Below are positions 2,632 to 20,114 of a stretch of 22,475 bases of DNA, one piece after another. Position 1 is the stretch's first letter. The number at the start of each line of letters is the position of its first letter. Source of the stretch: a virus; the IMG/VR virus record IMGVR_UViG_3300032677_001012, positions 1 through 22,475 of that record; one strand, given 5' to 3'. The notes beneath the pieces are model-generated. The model was not told the origin of the DNA and ran no database searches. It saw only the letters and a list, made by a program, of their open reading frames with translations. The translations under genes were made by a program, and so were the position numbers.

Positions 2632-3621
2632 TTAGAGTTCCTTTAATGTTTTACAATTATCTCCGTGCCATCTATTGTAGTTCGATACAACCGCAATTTT
2701 ACCACAATGTTCGCACGATTTAGTAGGACGAACAATTCCAGTCATTCGCTCACTCATTTGTTTTTTCCAGTTATCGGATTTGGGCATCTTACACCCTCTT
2801 AATGCCCCTTGACGAATTTTTTCTTTTGCTTCATCAGATACGACTCTATTTTTTAATGCTTCTTTTCTTTTTAATATTGTTTCAGCAGAATAAATTTCGT
2901 GTTCTTTTTTCCCACGTTTTGCCGCCGCACATTTTTCCATTATAGCAGGATCGCGTTTAACGCCTCTTCTTGAATCTGCCTGTTTTTGTAATAGTGATTT
3001 GCCTTCCGGAGTTTCTAAAAATGCTCGCCGTTTGGTCTTCATCATTTCTTTGTATTCTGGGTCAGCCCATCGTGCTAATGCGGCCTCTTTTTTTCTCTTA
3101 GTGCCGTCCGCAGTCATTTTGAGTTTTTTGCCCCAGTTAGGATTTTCGGGACCTTTCTTAAACTCTTTTAACTTACTTTTCTCGCCAATCTTCTTTTTAG
3201 ATTCTTCTGAGTGTTTTCGTCCGACCCAAGTTCCGCCTTCTCTGGCATACTTCTCTTTTAACATTTGAGAATAGTGTGTTCTAAATGTTTCATAAATCCT
3301 ACTGGAAATTGTATAGGTATGATTTACGCCGCGTTCCTTAGTAGTCATTTTGTTAATGAATGTATTAAACGCAAATGCCATTTTGCTACCGTATATGCCT
3401 TCAAACTTCATTTTCCATAACAATGCGTGAGCAATGTAATGTTCTCGGGCAGTTAGTTGAACGACGTTTGATTTGATATTATCGCCTCCAAAACTACGAG
3501 GAATAATATGATGTGTTTCTTTATATCCCTGTATCGGACCTCGTAGTTGTGCTTTGTGTATAAGGTTATTATACCACTTGCTATATTTGCTTTCTACAAA
3601 TTTTACGGGCCAATTTATCAT
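2632..3621 (-). CDS. HNH homing endonuclease with NUMOD3-like repeats and C-terminal zinc finger
   Basis: A 329-residue HNH endonuclease of the phage homing type. The HNH core is ETHHIIPRSFGGDN (35-48) followed by NVVQLTAREHYIAHALLW (52-69). The long basic C-terminal half carries several NUMOD3-like DNA-binding segments, for example GRKHSEESKKKIGEKSK, ENPNWGKK and VSDEAKEKIRQGALRG. It ends with a Cys/His cluster, CEHCG followed by H and C near the C-terminus, which may bind zinc. No good Shine-Dalgarno site precedes the ATG at 3621. The stop of the 24-codon queE remnant lies 15 bases upstream, so reinitiation after that remnant is a plausible route of translation. The gene sits exactly where the queE remnant breaks off, which suggests queE codon 23 is at or near its homing site. 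Confidence 0.85.
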   Translation of the reverse strand: MINWPVKFVESKYSKWYNNLIHKAQLRGPIQGYKETHHIIPRSFGGDNIKSNVVQLTAREHYIAHALLWKMKFEGIYGSKMAFAFNTFINKMTTKERGVNHTYTISSRIYETFRTHYSQMLKEKYAREGGTWVGRKHSEESKKKIGEKSKLKEFKKGPENPNWGKKLKMTADGTKRKKEAALARWADPEYKEMMKTKRRAFLETPEGKSLLQKQADSRRGVKRDPAIMEKCAAAKRGKKEHEIYSAETILKRKEALKNRVVSDEAKEKIRQGALRGCKMPKSDNWKKQMSERMTGIVRPTKSCEHCGKIAVVSNYNRWHGDNCKTLKEL

Positions 3622-3934: not shown

Positions 3935-4265
3935 CTTGTTCCTTTCTAAATTGTGCTACATCTTCAACAGCACTCAATAATGTATGAGCATAGTTAAATG
4001 CTTGTTGTCGACGCATAATTACAGCAGATTCTGTATCAATATAGCCTTTAGTTAACAATGTCCAAATAGCATGCCAGCGAGTCTTGCTCCACCAATTACT
4101 TTTTACAGTTGTGTAGATAGTAACACTAACTTCGTGGTCATCTGCTTCTACCCACATATTGTGATTGTGACTTTCGTCACCACATGTACATGCAACTCTA
4201 TAGACTTTACTATTACCCCAGTCGTTAGTTTGCATAATGCCTTCAGCCGGCGTTTGGTACATCAT
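3909..4265 (-). CDS. 118-residue phage-conserved protein of unknown function
   Basis: The ATG at 4265 overlaps the folE stop in an ATGA junction; a second ATG follows at 4262. The N-terminal half has VACTCGDESHNHNMWVEADD, a Cys/His-rich stretch (C-x-C plus HxH) that could bind a metal. A Trp-rich segment (NWWSKTRWHAIWTLL) and an Arg/Gln-rich helix (MRRQQAFNYAHTLL) follow. I have a sense that this protein recurs in marine phage genomes but know no function. Coupling to folE suggests it is expressed with the deazaguanine genes. Confidence 0.6.
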   Translation of the reverse strand: MMYQTPAEGIMQTNDWGNSKVYRVACTCGDESHNHNMWVEADDHEVSVTIYTTVKSNWWSKTRWHAIWTLLTKGYIDTESAVIMRRQQAFNYAHTLLSAVEDVAQFRKEQDAKRQTNN

Positions 4266-4990
4266 TTTGAAGCATACTCCTGTTGCATCTTGATATTATC
4301 AAAGAATTCTTTCTTTGTACCGTGGTCGTCTTTAAACGCACCTTTTAATACTGTAGTCTGCGTTAGACTACTCTTAGCCATAATGCCGCGATTCTCACAG
4401 CATCCGTGAGTCATTTGAATATAAACTCCTAAGTCTGTGGCTCCTGTGGCTTTTTGTATTTCCCTAGCAATATCATTACAAAGTTCCTCCTGGAGAGTTC
4501 CACGTCGGGCACACCACTGTGCGATTCTTGTGTACTTAGATAATCCGATAAGTTTTTGAGCGGCAATAATGCCAATATAAGCAACACCAGTAACGGGTTG
4601 GTGATGATGGCTACACATACTACGAAGCTCACTACGGACAACCAACATACCTTCGTAACGGTCCTCCGAATCATTTGGAAATGCTGTTGCGTCTGGTGCT
4701 GGTTCATATCTTCCACTCATTATTTCATTAAAGTACATTTTAGCTAGACGCTTCGCAGTACCATGCGAGTTTGGATCTGTTTCTCTATCAATTAGTAGTG
4801 TATCTAATACAGTTTCAAAAGCCTTAGTAGCTTCTTCGATTAAGACTTCTTTTTGTTCTTCGTCAACATACTCGCTAATATTGTCGCCAGCCCAGAAGCG
4901 TACATTGTGCTTTTTCATTTGATCTCGAATAGCTAGATGCAAAGGTCTGCCTTCGTCTTCTTTGGTATTATATGTCATTGATTCAGTCAT
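4262..4990 (-). CDS. folE: GTP cyclohydrolase I (FolE)
   Basis: FolE converts GTP to 7,8-dihydroneopterin triphosphate, the entry step to folate and to preQ0/7-deazaguanine. The 242 residues contain the zinc-site signature RSMCSHHHQP (123-132), with C126 and H129 as expected ligands. The GLSKYTRIAQW core (149-159) and THGCCENRG (194-202), with C197 as third ligand, also match, and RLAKMYFNE (81-89) matches the family helix. Length is close to bacterial FolE (about 220), with an N-terminal extension. The start at 4990 has an AAGGA site six bases upstream. A sigma70-like promoter lies directly before the gene (5010-5038), making this the first gene of its transcription unit. With queE and dpdA in the window, the deazaguanine role is more likely than folate supply. 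Confidence 0.93.
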   Translation of the reverse strand: MTESMTYNTKEDEGRPLHLAIRDQMKKHNVRFWAGDNISEYVDEEQKEVLIEEATKAFETVLDTLLIDRETDPNSHGTAKRLAKMYFNEIMSGRYEPAPDATAFPNDSEDRYEGMLVVRSELRSMCSHHHQPVTGVAYIGIIAAQKLIGLSKYTRIAQWCARRGTLQEELCNDIAREIQKATGATDLGVYIQMTHGCCENRGIMAKSSLTQTTVLKGAFKDDHGTKKEFFDNIKMQQEYASK

Positions 4991-5038: not shown

Positions 5039-5239
5039 TATTTTTTCTGCTCGAAGGTTACGACAAGTTTCTTTAACTTGTACAGGATAATCAGGACTAA
5101 TTTCTGCAATTGAGCAATCATATTTGACAACTATATGCGGGTGTGTATAATTACAATAGAACGCAAATGCTACACCTAAAATTCCTACTACTAATGCTAT
5201 ATAAAAATCTAAATTTTGTCGCTTAATAATACTTTGCAT
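5021..5239 (-). CDS. small single-pass membrane protein
   Basis: Seventy-two residues with one predicted membrane helix at about 12-28 (YIALVVGILGVAFAFYC) and a polar C-terminal domain containing YDCSIAEISPDYPVQVKETCRNLR. The two cysteines of that domain could form a disulfide outside the membrane. The YDCSxAEISPD pattern is one I associate with a small protein common in marine phages; function unknown. It overlaps the preceding gene by 31 bases, and the last codons contain the -35 box of the folE promoter, so it ends its transcription unit. Confidence 0.65.
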   Translation of the reverse strand: MQSIIKRQNLDFYIALVVGILGVAFAFYCNYTHPHIVVKYDCSIAEISPDYPVQVKETCRNLRAEKILQSPK

Positions 5240-5421
5240 AATTGATAATCCTTTTTTGATTTAAAACGAAACAACATACAATCTTCGTAAGGATGACTTG
5301 TAAATCGTTCACCCGGCAAGCCAAAAACTTCTATTACATCAGCACATGCTTCGTTCCACCATTTGTTATCTTGATTATGCCATGGAATTTTAAGTTCCCA
5401 AAGCACGTCAGTTTCTTGCAT
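5209..5421 (-). CDS. 70-residue phage protein of unknown function
   Basis: The start at 5421 is preferred because AAAGG lies six bases upstream and it gives a 14-base overlap with the HIT gene. A further in-frame ATG at 5457 would lengthen the overlap and has no clear site. The protein is soluble, with ELKIPWHNQDNKWWNEACADVIEVFGLPGERF and a basic/aromatic tail. It resembles a small family I have seen in marine phage genomes, but no activity is known to me and no catalytic motif is visible. Confidence 0.6.
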   Translation of the reverse strand: MQETDVLWELKIPWHNQDNKWWNEACADVIEVFGLPGERFTSHPYEDCMLFRFKSKKDYQLCKVLLSDKI

Positions 5422-5782
5422 AATTGCCTTTTTCTGGAATAACGTGCCGAACTCCACCGCGTGGATCTTGCATGTCTCCCTTGCGTCTTGGGATCATGTG
5501 TACATGAGGATACATTATTGTTTGGCCAGCAGCCTCCCCAACATTTTGGCCGACGTTAAATGCGTCCCATTTTTCCGATGCAACGCCGTCGAATCCGAAT
5601 TTGTAAGCGGCTTTGTAGCACTCCCAGAGACTATGACCTTCGAGGCTGGTAGGCACAAATAACAAATGCCCTTCGGTAACTGGATATGCATCTCGGAAGA
5701 CCCAAAAGTCTTTTGTTCTGTATTCAATTTCTTTCCAGGGTACTGTTTTTTCATCAAGCGCCTTTGTTAGTTCGTTCTGCAC
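5408..5782 (-). CDS. HIT-family nucleotide hydrolase/transferase
   Basis: The 124-residue protein carries the histidine-triad signature near its C-terminus, YPHVHMIPRRKGD (92-104), in which HxHxxPR replaces the classical HxHxHxx ending. The N-terminal strand region FRDAYPVTEGHLLFVPTS (29-46) is also typical of HIT proteins, which hydrolyse or transfer nucleotidyl groups. The substrate cannot be told. Translation appears to begin at a GTG (5782), since GAGG stands six bases upstream and no ATG fits. The gene overlaps its upstream neighbour by 29 bases and its downstream one by 14. Confidence 0.8.
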   Translation of the reverse strand: MQNELTKALDEKTVPWKEIEYRTKDFWVFRDAYPVTEGHLLFVPTSLEGHSLWECYKAAYKFGFDGVASEKWDAFNVGQNVGEAAGQTIMYPHVHMIPRRKGDMQDPRGGVRHVIPEKGNYARN

Positions 5783-5933
5783 GTTCTGCCTCTTTCAATT
5801 CATCTTTTAAATAATCGACATAGTCAATTAGCATTGAAATTTTACGGTCGTTTCCTGCTTCAGCCCGCAATGTATCAATATCTTTATTAACTACAGTAAT
5901 TTTTTCTGATAATTCTTTTGAAGTTAATGTCAT
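5754..5933 (-). CDS. 59-residue coiled-coil protein of unknown function
   Basis: A complete small frame translated by hand: it starts at the ATG at 5933, which forms an ATGA overlap with the stop of the upstream membrane-protein gene, and ends at a TGA at 5754-5756 inside the HIT gene. It is helical and highly charged (KELSEKITVVNKDIDTLRAE, then DYLKDELKEAERAERTNK), so a short coiled coil is likely. There is no hydrophobic segment or catalytic motif. Tight overlaps at both ends argue that it is a real gene. Confidence 0.6.
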   Translation of the reverse strand: MTLTSKELSEKITVVNKDIDTLRAEAGNDRKISMLIDYVDYLKDELKEAERAERTNKGA

Positions 5934-6130
5934 TTTCTAAATTTCCCTGCAACGCTACCACCAAACAACACAGTAAAAGCCAACCAAGTTTGCCAATTTA
6001 ACGGTATGTTTAGATATTCTGGAAATAATGTATTCAGTGCCCAAATACCTATGATAGGACCAATAGCAAGTGCAATTATAATAAGTGCAATTCCAAACAA
6101 CAATTTAATTACTGAACTAGTTAACGACAT
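5930..6130 (-). CDS. small two-segment membrane protein
   Basis: Sixty-six residues from the ATG at 6130, which follows a GGAGG site about nine bases upstream. It overlaps the phosphoribosyltransferase stop by 10 bases. Hydrophobic segments lie at about 8-30 (LLFGIALIIIALAIGPIIGIWAL) and 46-60 (WLAFTVLFGGSVAG), separated by the polar turn NTLFPEYLNIPLNW. Small proteins with this WALNTLFP layout are common in marine phages and have no assigned role. A longer start at 6166 lacks a ribosome site. Confidence 0.65.
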   Translation of the reverse strand: MSLTSSVIKLLFGIALIIIALAIGPIIGIWALNTLFPEYLNIPLNWQTWLAFTVLFGGSVAGKFRK

Positions 6131-12297: not shown

Positions 12298-12326
12298 ATT
12301 ATACAGTAAAAACTATTAAACGTCAA
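12298..12326 (-). promoter_or_regulatory. sigma70-type promoter, probably giving a leaderless transcript
   Basis: On the minus strand, TTGACG (12326-12321) and TATAAT (12303-12298) are spaced by exactly 17 bases, close to the ideal bacterial promoter. The -35 box lies within the last codons of the halogenase gene. The predicted start (about 12289-12293) coincides with the ATG at 12292. It would drive the Gfo/Idh, MDR and downstream genes. Confidence 0.75.
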
Positions 12327-13518
12327 ACTGTCTTGGCGCACCTTTGAAGTAATTATAGCCAAAAGACTCGTCCATTACAACCAAACTGAATGTTGTAAAC
12401 AAATGAGCTGGTCCAGCATACGGAGCGCCTGCACTAGTTGCCGCTTGATTAGCATCTAAAATATCATTGAATCTTTTGTTATTTTTTAAATTAGTTTTAC
12501 TGTTAGCGACTGCTTTGTTCCAAAATTCACTGTTAAAATTAGTACCGCCATGATATATCCAATTGATAATATCTTCGGTTGTTTGTACTTCACGCAACCA
12601 TCGAGCGTTTGCTTGATTTTCGGAAATCTTTTCTGTTATGTAGTCTAATAAAATTGCACAAGTAGCATTGTATTGATTAATCGAAGTTGCACTAATTGGT
12701 TCAAAGAATAATGCTCTATTACCATTTAACAAAATATTGTTGTTTACAATCTTATTTGCATAATAAGGTCGGAATGAATATTCTTTTGATTGTAATTTTT
12801 CAACAGGAATTTTCAATGTGTCTGCAAAATCTTGTCTAGCATCTTCTATAGTAGTAATAGTATCATTAAACATGTAACCGTAAGTTTTCCGGGAAGTTAA
12901 TGGAACACCAAAAATCCAGCCATGTTTAGTTGCTATGTGTTCTGTGTATTCTATAGGGTCAAATTCTTCACTGTGTATCAGTGCGTGATTTAATAAACTG
13001 CAAGTACTATATGTGTAATCGGAATAATCTTTAGGAAATCCGCCACAATCAACTACATAATCGAATCTTTCTTCTTTGTTATCAATTGTTAAAGTTACAC
13101 CGTCTAGTGTATCTTCCATATTATTAACACAGCCTTCGATTATACTAAATTTATCAGACCATAATTTTTGAAATCTAGAAAATGCAAATTCTTTAAGTTT
13201 AAAATTATTAAAATGTACAGCAATACCGCCACTGGCAATCAAGGGATTAAGCCAATCCTTTTCTCGCCAGTTAATAAATTTAGTCCCAAATTTTAATGTG
13301 CTGTCTAATGATTCAGTGTCTTCGTAAATAGAATAACGCATTGCATATTCTAATACTCTAACAAATCCAGGATTAGTACTTTCACCTATTCCTAAGATAG
13401 GAGTGTTAGGATCGTAGATTGATACAATTTCGTAATTGTTATCTAAACTACATAAAAAATAACTTGCAGTAAGAATGCCGGCAGAACCGGCACCTATGAT
13501 TCCTATACGTTTTTTCAT
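12316..13518 (-). CDS. flavin-dependent (tryptophan-type) halogenase
   Basis: A 400-residue FAD-dependent halogenase-family protein. It has the dinucleotide motif GIIGAGSAG (6-14), GIGESTNP (43-50), the region LKFGTKFINW (75-84), in which K76 aligns with the catalytic lysine of PrnA, and FFEPISATSI (271-280). The diagnostic GWxWxIP motif appears as GWIFGVPL (200-207), with the second Trp replaced by Phe. Bacterial PrnA-type enzymes are about 530 residues, so this one is short. A cyanophage halogenase (VirX1, phage Syn10) is known to iodinate aromatic substrates, so a viral member is credible. The start forms an ATGA overlap with dpdA. A flavin reductase, which these enzymes need, is not in the window and could come from the host. 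Confidence 0.85.
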   Translation of the reverse strand: MKKRIGIIGAGSAGILTASYFLCSLDNNYEIVSIYDPNTPILGIGESTNPGFVRVLEYAMRYSIYEDTESLDSTLKFGTKFINWREKDWLNPLIASGGIAVHFNNFKLKEFAFSRFQKLWSDKFSIIEGCVNNMEDTLDGVTLTIDNKEERFDYVVDCGGFPKDYSDYTYSTCSLLNHALIHSEEFDPIEYTEHIATKHGWIFGVPLTSRKTYGYMFNDTITTIEDARQDFADTLKIPVEKLQSKEYSFRPYYANKIVNNNILLNGNRALFFEPISATSINQYNATCAILLDYITEKISENQANARWLREVQTTEDIINWIYHGGTNFNSEFWNKAVANSKTNLKNNKRFNDILDANQAATSAGAPYAGPAHLFTTFSLVVMDESFGYNYFKGAPRQFDV

Positions 13519-15194
13519 AGTTCAAACAAATTGTCATTAAGCACAATTTCTGCTTTAGGAGTAATTACTTTTTCCACAGTTAAATTTGCTTCAATAATTA
13601 AATGCTCATCTGCTTTGGTGCTAGCATTAACAGTTTTCTTTCCAGTGTAACCACGAGTACCAGGGATAGCCATCCAAAACTTACTGAATTCATCAACAAT
13701 GGAATCTGCTGTTGCTCTATCGCTTGTAGCAAAAATAGCATCGATAATATCTTTAGCATATAGTCTGTCAAATTTTTCATCGACTAGCATACTAGGGCAA
13801 AGTCCAGCATCGTATTGTCTATTGGCTTCTTGTACGGCATTGATATGCATCCAAACATTATGACCCATCATAATAGCGTAAGTAAAACTATCCCAACTTG
13901 TTTTTCCTACTTTACCAATTTTGTTAACATCGTTAGGCCCATATATACAAATTTTATTAACTTCGACTCCATCCATAATAGGACTTGTTTCGAAATTAGC
14001 AAAATGTTTATCTTGAACCACAGCATCTTGGAATAAACGTGTATCTTGACTATATTTTTTATCGTCTAAGCTAGGAAGCATACGATATAGCCATTTATCA
14101 CGATCTTTAATTTCTGTTTGTACATAAATCTGACCATTAGCAGTTGCTAAGAATGGACTTGCACAGTCGAAACTAATTGTAAATTGATCGTTATGATATT
14201 TTCGAACAGCACGTTGTATGTCTGTTAAAATTAAAGCCCATTCAAGTTTACTTGTACCTAAGAAGTGCATCCAGTCTTGATGTCCTTTTTCAAGTAAGCC
14301 ATCAAATCTCAATGCCACTATACGTTTTAAAGTTAAGTGTATATCACACATGTTCTGGCCGCCCATGCCCCAGCCATTAAACGGTTTGTCATATTTCTTT
14401 GGATCGCAAAAATCTTTCATTTGCTGATACCAATCTTCTGCTTGTGCGTGATTTTCGCCTTGTAGTACATTTAAGAACTTACAAGCACCTGTACGATGTT
14501 TAATAAAATATTCGTTATTATATTTTGTAGCTTCAACTGCTTGTTGATATGTTTCAATTCCAGTAGCTTTCTTACCAACAGGACTACGTTCAACCCATGC
14601 TGGAATATCGAGTACCATGCCGTAATCCATTAACGAATCCATCCACGCTAAAACTTGTTCACGTTTCTTTTGTGCCGCATCTAATTGCGCTTGATAATTC
14701 TTAACGTGATCAATCTTAGTCATTTTAGGATTGCCGTTTTTATCTAGCTTAGGATTACCGCTTGCATCTAGTTGTGGAACAAGTTCAATACCTTTAGCAC
14801 GAACTTCTGCCCATTTTGCCGCAACTTCTGGGCCAGTAGGATCTCGCCATTCACCTGCCCATACACCTTTACCAATTTGGAATCCACCTGAATCACCTAA
14901 CACCCAACTAGTACTACGGTCGCGATTGCGAAACATATCTTCACCATCGTCTTGTTTGCTAAGATCTAAATTAGCATGTCCAGCACTATACAAACAATGG
15001 TCGTAGTAAAACGCACCTTTATCTGGTTCTAGGTAGTTAAGGCTTTCTACACCGTTTTTAAAACTTGCAGGTATGCGAGCAGGATCAACATAATTACCGT
15101 AACGTTGTTTACCTATATATGTGCTATAAAATCCTGATGTAGCTGGAAGGAAATATGCGTAATCGTTTTGTGTGGCTGTTAAATTTTTATTCAT
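13515..15194 (-). CDS. dpdA: DpdA-like DNA-guanine transglycosylase (TGT superfamily)
   Basis: DpdA exchanges guanine in DNA for preQ0 or a related 7-deazaguanine, modifying the genome against restriction. The protein is 559 residues from the ATG at 15194, chosen for its ATGA overlap with the upstream gene; a longer frame from 15239 exists. TGT landmarks appear in order: LGDSGGFQ (99-106, first catalytic Asp D101), VLDIPAW (194-200), FLNVLQGE (240-247), GWGMGG (274-279), HFLGTS (310-315), and SFDCASPF (341-348), with D343 in the place of the TGT nucleophile. A TGT-type four-ligand zinc site is not obvious. The C-terminus NDNLFEL resembles the polymerase tail FNSLFEF and may bind the sliding clamp encoded upstream. 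tRNA-TGT enzymes are shorter (about 380), which favours DpdA. Confidence 0.82.
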   Translation of the reverse strand: MNKNLTATQNDYAYFLPATSGFYSTYIGKQRYGNYVDPARIPASFKNGVESLNYLEPDKGAFYYDHCLYSAGHANLDLSKQDDGEDMFRNRDRSTSWVLGDSGGFQIGKGVWAGEWRDPTGPEVAAKWAEVRAKGIELVPQLDASGNPKLDKNGNPKMTKIDHVKNYQAQLDAAQKKREQVLAWMDSLMDYGMVLDIPAWVERSPVGKKATGIETYQQAVEATKYNNEYFIKHRTGACKFLNVLQGENHAQAEDWYQQMKDFCDPKKYDKPFNGWGMGGQNMCDIHLTLKRIVALRFDGLLEKGHQDWMHFLGTSKLEWALILTDIQRAVRKYHNDQFTISFDCASPFLATANGQIYVQTEIKDRDKWLYRMLPSLDDKKYSQDTRLFQDAVVQDKHFANFETSPIMDGVEVNKICIYGPNDVNKIGKVGKTSWDSFTYAIMMGHNVWMHINAVQEANRQYDAGLCPSMLVDEKFDRLYAKDIIDAIFATSDRATADSIVDEFSKFWMAIPGTRGYTGKKTVNASTKADEHLIIEANLTVEKVITPKAEIVLNDNLFEL

Positions 15195-15544
15195 GTTATC
15201 CAATGTTGTACTAGTACCATAAGGCTTAACCAAGCCCACATGGTATTAAAACCTACTAGAGTAGGTAGAGCTTTTTTACGACTAGCCCAGATAAGAGAAA
15301 CACTAGTTGCTAATGTTAGATAATATAATTCCCAGATTTGAATATTAAAAATTAATCCAGGAACTATAATGATTGCCTTAGCCCACCAGCTGATAAATTC
15401 AATAGTATTATAGCTGGTCCAGTATTCTTTAGTAAACCACATCATATAGCAGTCACGCATATTGCGCCAACCGCTATGTGAGTAGCATATAATCATTAAT
15501 ACTAACCATAAAGCAACTGCTAATAATATCTGGTCTTGAGACAT
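15191..15544 (-). CDS. small integral membrane protein
   Basis: The 117-residue protein has about three to four hydrophobic segments: 6-20 (ILLAVALWLVLMIIC), about 53-66 (WAKAIIIVPGLIFN), about 71-86 (WELYYLTLATSVSLIW) and 96-113. It is rich in Trp and Tyr. A basic loop (WASRKKALP) lies between the last two segments. It starts three bases after the clamp stop with no clear ribosome site and is coupled to dpdA by ATGA. I recognise no family. A role at the host membrane is the most one can say. Confidence 0.65.
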   Translation of the reverse strand: MSQDQILLAVALWLVLMIICYSHSGWRNMRDCYMMWFTKEYWTSYNTIEFISWWAKAIIIVPGLIFNIQIWELYYLTLATSVSLIWASRKKALPTLVGFNTMWAWLSLMVLVQHWIT

Positions 15545-17104: not shown

Positions 17105-19774
17105 TTAAAACTCAAATAAACTGTTAAATGTATTTTTTTCTTCGGTACTACCTATGTCCCATTTTAGTACACCAATCAAGTTGTCTAGCTTCTTGTCGAT
17201 AATGGTAGCCTCCATTTCTGCATGGTCAAAAGGTAAGTCTTTAAACCACTGTGGGAGCCGTAATTCATCTACTGGATAGGCTACGCTTGTGAAACCCATT
17301 GCATTGGGCTTGAGTTTACAAACAATAACTTTTGCACCATCTGTAATACTCATAGAATATTTGTCATTAAACATACGCTTCAACGTATTCCAGTTGATAC
17401 TAGCACGTACATGACCAGGCATATTTGCTTTGCCTGCTTTTGCTTCTTTGGCTTGGTAGTCTGTAATGTTGTTAGCACGTTTCGGACTACCTTTCTCCCA
17501 ACCTGGACGAGCTTTAAATCTAATTCTAAATTCACTAATGTGATCAAGAACTTCTTGTTCAGGCTTGCCCATAAGAACCATTTCAAGTACTTCACTTAAG
17601 AAGTCTTGAATAAATTCTGGAGTGTCGGATCTCTTAAGATCTAACCCCATCGCTTTAATTTTGCCAGCTTTTCCATCTACGTCTGTGCGCTTACCTTCTT
17701 TATCATAATAAAGAACTGCATAACGTTTTTTAGTAATGAATAAACTCTTACTACCAACAATCTCACGTCCTGCCTTAATAACTTCACCACGCGATTTAGG
17801 GCAATGGAAAGTATCTAACATAAACTGTGGGAATGTAGTATTAACTTCTTCACCGATTTGATCGTATAATCCGATAACTGTTTCCTTAGTCCAAGGAATT
17901 TTACCAGCTTCAATGTCTTTTTGTAAGGTTTTATATGCACTAAAATAACAAGAATCGGTATCACCGTAAATAACAGCCTTACCTCTGTAGTCATATTCAC
18001 CAGCAATAATCTCATTTACCTTACCAGCCATGTGTCGTACAATTTGACGACCAGTTAATGTAGTAGATTGACCAATACGTTTATCAAAGAAACGGCATCC
18101 ACTGTTAAGAATAGCACCATATAAACTATTAAGGTTAATCTTCTTAACAAGTTGACGCTTATCCCAGTACTCTTCTTCGACTTTGTTTCCTGCTTTAATT
18201 GCTTCTTTAAGTTTAGCCTGCATTTCTTTACGTTCAGCATACCAACGTTTTAGCAAACCAGGAATAATACCTTCTTTTTCATAGGTAAAGATTGTGCCGT
18301 TAGCACTAATCATCCAAGGTTGATTACTTTCAAATATTAAACGATACACTTCGGCAGCACTCAATACATCACTAGACCCATCTTCCCAGTCGATAGTGAT
18401 GTCTGTTCCTATTTCTTGTGCCATTACTGCTTCGTATTCGTCTGTACCGAACTTGCCTTCCCATGCCGCCGCAAATGATTTACCTTTAGCAATTTGCAAT
18501 TCGATGAATTCATCTGTTTTAGTTTGACGTAACTGCCCGATAATTGTTTCTGGGCCCATGTTAAGTGCTCTAATAGCACTAGGATACAGTGAGTTAATGT
18601 CTAATGAACCAACCCAATCCTGAATACCTTCTTTAGGATACGCAACATACGCACCAGCCGCACCTTCGTTATCTTCACGTTCGCTCATCTTCTTGCGATT
18701 AGGTACTTGAAACCCTCTTCGATGTGCTTCGTTAATAATAGCTTGTTCGGTTACAGCTACAGCACCCATTGTAGTTTGCAGTAATACTGTGTTTTCATGT
18801 GCTAGTGTATTAGCAAGATCCATGAATTTCAACTTCTTGTCTAGATCATCAAGTAGTTTACAGTCATTAATGTTATATTCAACAAATGTCTTAAAGTCAT
18901 TGTTATATAATTGATCTAAAGTACCTTCGTATTGTGTTTTACGTTTGCCTAATTCATATTCGGCAATAGCATCCAACCTATAACTGTGACGTTCTTCATA
19001 TGTATATTTGCGATACAACTCTAAATAGTCCAAATGCACACGTCCAATATAGTCATATGTTGTACTAGTTCGTCCATATTTTTCATATTCACGCTTTTTA
19101 GGCAATTGATCAAACAAACAAAAACGTCTTGTATCTTCTTTGCTTAATACTTTAATTACTCTATTTGTAGTATACGGAATATCGAAGCCTTCGCTATTCC
19201 AACCACTTATAATATCTGCGTCTTTGATTAGATCTAAAAACATATCTAACAAATCTGCTTCGTTATCAAACAAATATGTATTAGGAAAGTCTTTAATCAT
19301 TTCCTTGGCTTCTTCCATCTTAAGACCTTTAGGTGGAATAGCCAAACATACCATAGTTTCTAACCATTGTAGGTAGACAGCAATCGCAGTAATAGGCATA
19401 AATGCATCATCTGGTGATGCGTAGCCACGTTCTGGATCAAAGTCTACCTCAATATCGAAAAATGCTACATTTAATTTAGGAGCATCTTGATTTAAATAAT
19501 GTTCACTTAGTGTAACAAAGATTGGATTAATGTCTGCTTCGTAAAGTTCTTTACCACTGTTAATAGCTTGTTCTTTACGTAGTTCTTTTGTATTTTTACA
19601 AACAATACGTGTAAGCGGATCGCCGTAAATTGATTGAAATTTCCCTCGGGGATCTTTTACATAAAATGTGTGGCGCACAGGAATGTCTCTGAATTCTCTG
19701 TTGCCTTTTTGATTACGTTCGACTACGCGAACAATATCATTCTCGCGGTCAAACCATGCGTCTACATAAGACAT
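17105..19774 (-). CDS. 43: family B DNA polymerase (gp43-like) with 3'-5' exonuclease
   Basis: The replicative polymerase, 889 residues, close to T4 gp43 (898). Exonuclease motifs: FFDIEVDFD (105-113, D107/E109), SGWNSEGFDIPY (190-201, D198) and EYNINDCKLL (299-308, D304). Polymerase motifs: A, SLDINSLYPS (390-399, D392); B, KKINLNSLYGA (544-554); C, IYGDTDS (602-608, D605 and D607). The C-terminus ends NTFNSLFEF, like the clamp-binding peptide of RB69 gp43. The ATG at 19774 has a GGAGAAG site, and two similar hairpins lie just upstream (19790-19835), suggesting autoregulation as in T4. No intein or intron interrupts the gene. Confidence 0.96.
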   Translation of the reverse strand: MSYVDAWFDRENDIVRVVERNQKGNREFRDIPVRHTFYVKDPRGKFQSIYGDPLTRIVCKNTKELRKEQAINSGKELYEADINPIFVTLSEHYLNQDAPKLNVAFFDIEVDFDPERGYASPDDAFMPITAIAVYLQWLETMVCLAIPPKGLKMEEAKEMIKDFPNTYLFDNEADLLDMFLDLIKDADIISGWNSEGFDIPYTTNRVIKVLSKEDTRRFCLFDQLPKKREYEKYGRTSTTYDYIGRVHLDYLELYRKYTYEERHSYRLDAIAEYELGKRKTQYEGTLDQLYNNDFKTFVEYNINDCKLLDDLDKKLKFMDLANTLAHENTVLLQTTMGAVAVTEQAIINEAHRRGFQVPNRKKMSEREDNEGAAGAYVAYPKEGIQDWVGSLDINSLYPSAIRALNMGPETIIGQLRQTKTDEFIELQIAKGKSFAAAWEGKFGTDEYEAVMAQEIGTDITIDWEDGSSDVLSAAEVYRLIFESNQPWMISANGTIFTYEKEGIIPGLLKRWYAERKEMQAKLKEAIKAGNKVEEEYWDKRQLVKKINLNSLYGAILNSGCRFFDKRIGQSTTLTGRQIVRHMAGKVNEIIAGEYDYRGKAVIYGDTDSCYFSAYKTLQKDIEAGKIPWTKETVIGLYDQIGEEVNTTFPQFMLDTFHCPKSRGEVIKAGREIVGSKSLFITKKRYAVLYYDKEGKRTDVDGKAGKIKAMGLDLKRSDTPEFIQDFLSEVLEMVLMGKPEQEVLDHISEFRIRFKARPGWEKGSPKRANNITDYQAKEAKAGKANMPGHVRASINWNTLKRMFNDKYSMSITDGAKVIVCKLKPNAMGFTSVAYPVDELRLPQWFKDLPFDHAEMEATIIDKKLDNLIGVLKWDIGSTEEKNTFNSLFEF

Positions 19775-19789
19775 AAATTTTCTTCTCCA

Positions 19790-19807
19790 TGCAATTTAGG
19801 GCTTGCA
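19790..19807 (-). promoter_or_regulatory. putative gp43 translational operator, proximal hairpin
   Basis: On the minus strand, TGCAA (19807-19803) and TTGCA (19794-19790) form a 5-bp stem with the 8-nt loop GCCCTAAA. It ends one base before the GGAGAAG ribosome site of the polymerase gene. T4 and RB69 gp43 repress their own translation by binding a hairpin with a 5-bp stem and 8-nt loop next to the ribosome site; their loop sequence is different. Confidence 0.6.
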
Positions 19808-19817
19808 AATACCTTCG

Positions 19818-19835
19818 TGCGGTTTATGGCCCGCA
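19818..19835 (-). promoter_or_regulatory. putative gp43 translational operator, distal hairpin
   Basis: On the minus strand, TGCGG (19835-19831) and CCGCA (19822-19818) form a 5-bp stem with the 8-nt loop GCCATAAA. The loop differs at one base from that of the proximal hairpin, while the stems differ in sequence and keep pairing. It lies 28 bases upstream of the proximal hairpin. Confidence 0.55.
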
Positions 19836-19856
19836 TACCTTTCCTAGCAATACTTA

Positions 19857-20114
19857 TTAGATACGTTTAGTAATATCCAAAATTGCTTCAATCTCTTCCC
19901 AGTCTTCATTATGACTAGCCCAGTCGCCTTTATGAGCAATTTTAATTGCTTTATTAATGACTGCTGGTTTGACTTGTAATTCTTCTGCAACTGCTTTAAC
20001 AGTTTCTTTTAAGCCTTCTTGTAAATCTTCAATTTCACGCAATACTGTAGAACCTTCGCTAATTAAACGTTCTAGTTTTGCTTTTTCTTCTGCACCGTAT
20101 GAACGACCGCCCAT
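19857..20114 (-). CDS. dsbA: DsbA-like double-stranded DNA-binding protein
   Basis: The 85-residue, mostly helical, charged protein resembles T4 DsbA (89 residues), a dsDNA-binding protein that stimulates late transcription. The matching part is the C-terminal two thirds: LKETVKAVAEELQVKPAVINKAIKIAHKG (35-63) followed by an acidic helix (HNEDWEEIEAILDI). The KPAxxNKAIxIAHK stretch is the form I know from cyanophage relatives. The start at 20114 has GGAG well placed. A sigma70-like promoter lies immediately upstream, so it leads the unit containing the polymerase. The assignment rests on remembered family pattern and size. Confidence 0.68.
   Translation of the reverse strand: MGGRSYGAEEKAKLERLISEGSTVLREIEDLQEGLKETVKAVAEELQVKPAVINKAIKIAHKGDWASHNEDWEEIEAILDITKRI

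Follow-up and report, generated by a model that had tools for sequence, protein, structure and literature searches.

Tandem H-type RNA pseudoknots ahead of the gp43-type DNA polymerase gene of large uncultivated phages, a possible autogenous operator

Just before the DNA polymerase gene of hundreds of uncultivated phages, most of them large, lie one or two copies of a small RNA unit, the fold of which is conserved while its letters are not. The sequence studied here is a 22.5-kb IMG/VR virus record (the window, meaning the whole stretch of 22,475 nucleotides), the minus strand of which holds nearly all plausible genes. Two units stand there in tandem directly ahead of the Shine-Dalgarno (SD) sequence, and their pseudoknotted structure is nearly certain. 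On the basis of our comparative analysis, we consider it rather probable that the tandem pseudoknots serve as an autogenous two-site translational operator that is bound by the polymerase and exerts negative feedback. The features of the leader and its flanking genes are as follows.

17105 to 19774, minus strand: family B DNA polymerase, gp43 type, 889 aa (Pfam PF00136/PF03104; PHROG 262, E 1.8e-197)

19782 to 19788, minus strand: Shine-Dalgarno GGAGAAG, 1 nt 3' of the proximal unit, from sequence

19790 to 19813, minus strand: proximal pseudoknot unit, supported by covariation in 79 distinct units and by independent events on the polymerase tree; S1 5' strand GGT (19813-19811), L1 ATT (19810-19808), S2 5' strand TGCAA (19807-19803), S1 3' strand GCC (19802-19800), L3 CTAAA (19799-19795), S2 3' strand TTGCA (19794-19790)

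19818 to 19839, minus strand: distal pseudoknot unit, from sequence and from conservation with compensatory S2 and S1 in relatives; S1 5' strand GGT (19839-19837), L1 A (19836), S2 5' strand TGCGG (19835-19831), S1 3' strand GCC (19830-19828), L3 ATAAA (19827-19823), S2 3' strand CCGCA (19822-19818)

19851 to 19858, minus strand: AATAAGTA, putative T4-late-promoter-like -10 box, from ATAARTA occurrence in related leaders

19857 to 20114, minus strand: upstream gene, DsbA-like transcriptional regulator, 85 aa (Pfam PF11126, E 8e-5, just under the cut-off; PHROG 639, E 1e-11)

The polymerase has the gp43 proteins of RB69 and T4 as its closest solved relatives, in agreement with the initial annotation, which had taken it to be of this type. 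Its start is separated from the stop of the DsbA-like gene by a leader of 82 nt, the RNA sequence of which is AGGAAAGGUAUGCGGGCCAUAAACCGCACGAAGGUAUUUGCAAGCCCUAAAUUGCAUGGAGAAGAAAAUUUAUG. The same annotation had described two perfect hairpins of 5 bp and 8 nt at 19790-19835, and both are exactly as described: read 5' to 3' on the minus strand, the distal hairpin (19835-19818) is TGCGG-GCCATAAA-CCGCA and the proximal hairpin (19807-19790) is TGCAA-GCCCTAAA-TTGCA. A third component was absent from that description, namely a GGT located 1-3 nt 5' of each stem and complementary to the GCC that opens the loop. The reading as plain hairpins has to be given up, as the bases that open the loop pair with this upstream triplet to give an H-type pseudoknot. 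The pattern TGCNNGCCNTAAANNGCA has exactly two matches in the record, both at these hairpins, and its reversed control has none. The loop word GCCMTAAA occurs four times in the window versus 1.65 expected; because this word alone is not special, counting it elsewhere is uninformative. The folding energy of the single sequence is no better than that of shuffled sequence (z = 0.14), and it is the relatives that prove the hairpins: both recur there ahead of the polymerase gene, with altered stems in which every change is compensated.

Relatives were collected as 80 polymerases with 89-100% amino acid identity, then about 158 more from the same clade, plus two more distant sets. A unit lies within 75 nt of the polymerase start in 233 of the 237 window-clade loci (some contigs are counted twice), and nearly all of these loci have two. 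The proposal that loop conservation would mark a recognized RNA site survived this comparison. In relatives a GGAG- or AGGA-type SD comes after the proximal unit, and in the window the second unit ends 1 nt before the SD, so that the suggested doubled element beside the ribosome site is borne out. The remaining four loci (L020, L030, L041, and L275, the last on the contig of L020) have a gene inserted and keep the element approximately 820-850 nt upstream. In L020 an ORF of 247 aa on the opposite strand (5229-5972, minus strand), which encodes a DUF723 domain, has come to lie between leader and polymerase gene, as it also does in L030, L041, and L275, and it looks like a homing-type insertion that separated the putative operator from its gene. 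The polymerase behind the insert uses a new SD in these loci. Polymerases of phage-collection isolates reach at most about 51% identity, and no such unit was found in the leaders of seven isolates (Phosso, Atu_ph07, SCTP-2, Vibrio 2.275.O, MIJ3, 121Q, and XacN1).

The consensus unit, approximately 24 nt long and folded as a compact H-type pseudoknot, can be written as RGY-N(0-4)-S2-RCY-NNAAN-S2', where S2 has 4-7 bp, or 3-4 bp in some of the sister clade. H-type pseudoknots usually have a short first loop over a second stem of 4-5 bp and an A-rich third loop over a first stem of 3 bp, and the loops and helices of the consensus fit this geometry. The stems themselves vary widely. Proximal stems include UGCAA/UUGCA, UGUCA/UGACA, UGUGA/UCACA, UGAGA/UCUCA, UGUAA/UUACA, UGCGA/UCGCA, UGGGA/UCCCA, and UGUAG/CUACA, and distal stems include GCGG/CCGC, GCUG/CAGC, GCGA/UCGC, GUCG/CGAC, and GAUCA/UGAUC; conserved loops on changed but complementary stems, as first noted in the window, thus recur in the upstream regions of relatives. 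Within the loop the two A's are invariant, and the base before them is C, T, A, or G. Among 79 distinct proximal units (set A1), all 632 cells of the eight base pairs are standard pairs; S2 pairing was a requirement in the extraction, and the percentage of paired S2 cells is therefore partly built in, which does not apply to the variety of pair types. All five S2 pairs and the first S1 pair change on both sides, with both-side changes in 100 cells versus 22.7 in shuffles, and none of 500 shuffles matches any measure. When the structure is slid by 1-3 columns, only 22-37% of the cells pair. On a polymerase tree with 277 leaders, each variable stem position shows about 22-29 independent changes in the same way and none opposed (p down to 4e-9), a count that covers the three positions of the stem next to the loop. 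Register artefacts of the parser in S1 (L535 and L561) inflate the S1 change count on this tree.

The pairing of the upstream triplet is what makes each unit a compact H-type pseudoknot, because the RGY triplet pairs with the RCY of the loop and covaries with it. In 308 of 315 hairpins, which were collected without reference to upstream sequence, a triplet 0-4 nt upstream is complementary to the first three loop bases. The seven others comprise two spurious hairpins and five in which the same GGU was absorbed by a longer stem call. The triplet:loop pairs are GGU:GCC, GGC:GCC, GGU:ACC, and AGU:GCU in the window clade, with AGU:GCU, AGC:GCU, and AGU:ACU additionally in the sister clade. Set A1 was extracted with RGY and a central C of the loop triplet as conditions and without regard to S1 pairing, and the first S1 pair is GC in 66 units and AU in 13, never changed on one side only; the second pair is invariant and the third varies on one side (UG, CG, or UA). 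In L330 and L338 both sides of S1 have switched to AGT:GCT in the distal unit while the proximal unit remains GGT:GCC, and the pairing is therefore within a unit. The distal S1 is GGT:ACC in L312, L313, and L331, and there is one clear S1 mismatch, GGU:UCC in the distal unit of L106. The order of the strands is that of an H-type pseudoknot (a-b-a'-b'), with covariation in both helices.

Complementary half-sites are likewise kept by DNA dyads, and the element might be read as a DNA operator with two dyad sites for a transcription regulator. We regard this as scarcely credible, since the half-sites vary freely while the asymmetric spacer, the loop, stays. Of the 79 units, 74 have U-G as the third S1 pair, and non-Watson-Crick S2 pairs are G-U in 10 cases versus A-C in four, a bias that is consistent with the mRNA-sense strand and speaks against an operator in DNA. 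Moreover, the S1 pairing of an upstream triplet with a loop would be meaningless in duplex DNA.

Two contigs of 345 kb and 400 kb were read whole, and in each the combination of tandem, SD, and start codon occurs once, only before the polymerase. Other single matches in these contigs are weak, number about 1.5-2 times the reversed control, and lack SD and start context. This distribution bears on the ligand. Another phage protein, such as a gp32-like single-stranded DNA-binding protein (SSB), a RegA-like repressor, or the DsbA-like neighbor, might bind the pseudoknots and control polymerase translation. T4 gp32 does bind a pseudoknot that lies 5' of gene 32 (PMC3014915), a gp32-like SSB is encoded in three of the five contigs searched, and the DsbA-like gene lies directly upstream. 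We nevertheless consider a ligand of this kind unlikely, because an autogenous gp32 site of this type is absent: the two whole contigs have no unit elsewhere, including before the gp32-like gene. A RegA search of the five contigs gave no match, and its control matched nowhere either. The gene 32 element of T4, T2, and RB69 resembles the one described here in being an H-type pseudoknot in the leader of a phage replication gene; it is, however, single, lies 67 nt upstream with A+U repeats for cooperative SSB binding after it, and controls gene 32. The window element precedes the polymerase gene and not an SSB gene followed by such A+U-rich repeats. In 2010, the gene 32 pseudoknot was described as perhaps the only viral one with a part in translational autoregulation (PMC3014915).

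A metabolite riboswitch, for example a tandem of preQ1-type pseudoknots, could be suspected from the QueE-like and FolE genes in the window, given that preQ1-I riboswitches (RF00522) are small H-type pseudoknots with an A-rich third loop that lie 5' of the SD. This seems quite improbable. Unlike in preQ1-I, the unit has 0 nt between the 5' strand of S2 and the 3' strand of S1, leaving no room for a ligand base between the helices, and it precedes the polymerase rather than queuosine genes. Against Rfam, nothing in the window reached the gathering score and 19700-19960 had no match even at E ≤ 10, and no unit precedes the metabolic genes of the two whole contigs.

The position of the element in the message also deserves attention. 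The sequence ATAARTA occurs about 71-86 nt ahead of the start codon in many window-clade leaders, as compared with 1.5% of random 110-mers. Transcription from this promoter-like box would begin immediately upstream of the distal unit, so that the tandem would form the 5' end of the message. The box of the window and of many leaders takes the forms AATAARTA or TATAAATA and lies about 75 nt ahead of the start of the polymerase. In a considerable share of the leaders the exact box is missing, and other A/T-rich boxes are found instead. Stable 5' structures can stabilize mRNA, and it is conceivable, if not very likely, that the pseudoknots are a ligand-free cis element that shields a 5' end placed just before the distal unit from decay, or tunes ribosome loading. 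However, stability requires neither the invariant RCY and AA letters nor two copies, as generic stems would suffice, and the motif is bound to one gene in the two contigs.

Autoregulation of gene 43 is known from few coliphages, via plain hairpins. By our own reading, the gene 43 leaders hold AGCCT-AATAACTC-GGGCT in T4 (5 bp/8 nt), AGAC-AATAACTC-GTCT in RB69 (4 bp/8 nt), and TCTTT-CGTAAATG-AAGGA in RB49 (as RNA, UCUUU-CGUAAAUG-AAGGA; 5/8/5), the last hairpin including the SD. The geometry of the window hairpins, once said to be exactly that of T4 and RB69, is therefore shared with T4, but RB69 has a stem of only 4 bp. The element resembles these operators in the type of gene, in its place next to or over the SD, and in its stem of 4-5 bp with an 8-nt loop. 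T4-type operator loops contain UAAC or UAAA and the window loops end in UAAA, although only the AA is invariant in relatives. In contrast to the T4 and RB69 operators, the element is pseudoknotted through S1, is tandem in its clade, and has a loop beginning with RCY; no complementary triplet was found in the T4 and RB69 leaders, and the upstream gene is regA in T4 and RB69 and a DsbA-like gene in the window. Because its defining feature, a plain hairpin, fails, the element is not classed as a T4-type gp43 operator. Autogenous repression by gp43 is established for T4 and RB69, the AC/AA bases of the T4 operator loop matter, and RB49 has UAAA; no evidence of a pseudoknot has been reported for gene 43, and some T4-related gp43 proteins do not autoregulate (PMC3014915). 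The element is described neither in that paper nor in the literature searched, in which subscription papers were incompletely covered.

Autogenous repression is favored here because of the adjacency to the SD, the single target gene, the fixed letters on variable stems, and the precedent of T4 and RB69. In this mechanism, the polymerase mRNA leader folds into two tandem H-type pseudoknots (RGY-L1(0-4 nt)-S2-RCY-NNAAN-S2'), free gp43 not engaged on DNA would bind them, probably with one molecule per unit or cooperatively, and the bound polymerase would block ribosome entry, such that the polymerase level would be set by negative feedback. The existence of a protein ligand, its identity with the polymerase, repression upon binding, and cooperativity arising from two copies are each what we infer from this pattern. 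Counting against a polymerase operator are the absence of units in some sisters, the inserted gene in four loci, the T4-related gp43 proteins that do not autoregulate, and the presence of an encoded gp32-like SSB.

In the sister clade (polymerases approximately 74-100% identical to L387 or L403), most members keep the proximal unit. Many L403-group members have CCG/CGG or CCA/UGG as S2, and the 3' strand of this stem is provided by the GG of the SD (L520-L598), which is direct sequestration, as in RB49. Some members (L463, L466, L467, L470, and others) have no unit before the gene, and control is therefore dispensable there. At 45-75 nt before the polymerase start, L440-L599 have a different small hairpin in place of the distal unit, such as GTC-TC-GCCG-GAC-TTGAAA-CGGC or GCTC-ACGTTAC-GAGC. 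S1-like pairing in this distal hairpin is not established (25 of 81 versus 15.6 by shuffle, with a shuffle maximum of 25). In L443, L446, and L458 the unit is not directly ahead of the aligned polymerase start but about 180-205 nt away from it, and a small ORF or an N-terminal extension may lie between the two.

We are evenly divided on whether these units constitute a new RNA family of tandem H-type pseudoknots that would be recognized, possibly cooperatively, by a replicative family B DNA polymerase as its autogenous two-site operator in a broad group of large uncultivated phages. If so, the element would be, to our knowledge, the first operator of pseudoknot type for a DNA polymerase and the second viral case beside gene 32. 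The leaders of gp43-type polymerases in large environmental phages are under strong selection for RNA structure, with a different fold and in two copies. The natural variants, several hundred in number, differ freely in their stems and keep the recognition letters; they amount to a ready-made mutational scan, and they make testable how a DNA polymerase might discriminate a specific RNA from DNA and why the operator would have been doubled, replaced, or lost in some phages.

Among the other genes of the window, all on the minus strand, are those for the QueE-like protein (1093-1944), FolE (4262-4990), and a 574-aa protein without family match (13515-15239). The last holds a DSGGFQ motif, which we take to be that of tRNA-guanine transglycosylases, and as judged from sequence the three may belong to a 7-deazaguanine pathway. 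A tryptophan-halogenase-like gene is found at 12316-13518 (Pfam PF04820, E 4.5e-33), and ORFs that by eye resemble GIY-YIG and HNH endonucleases lie at 1931-2581 and 2632-3621, respectively.
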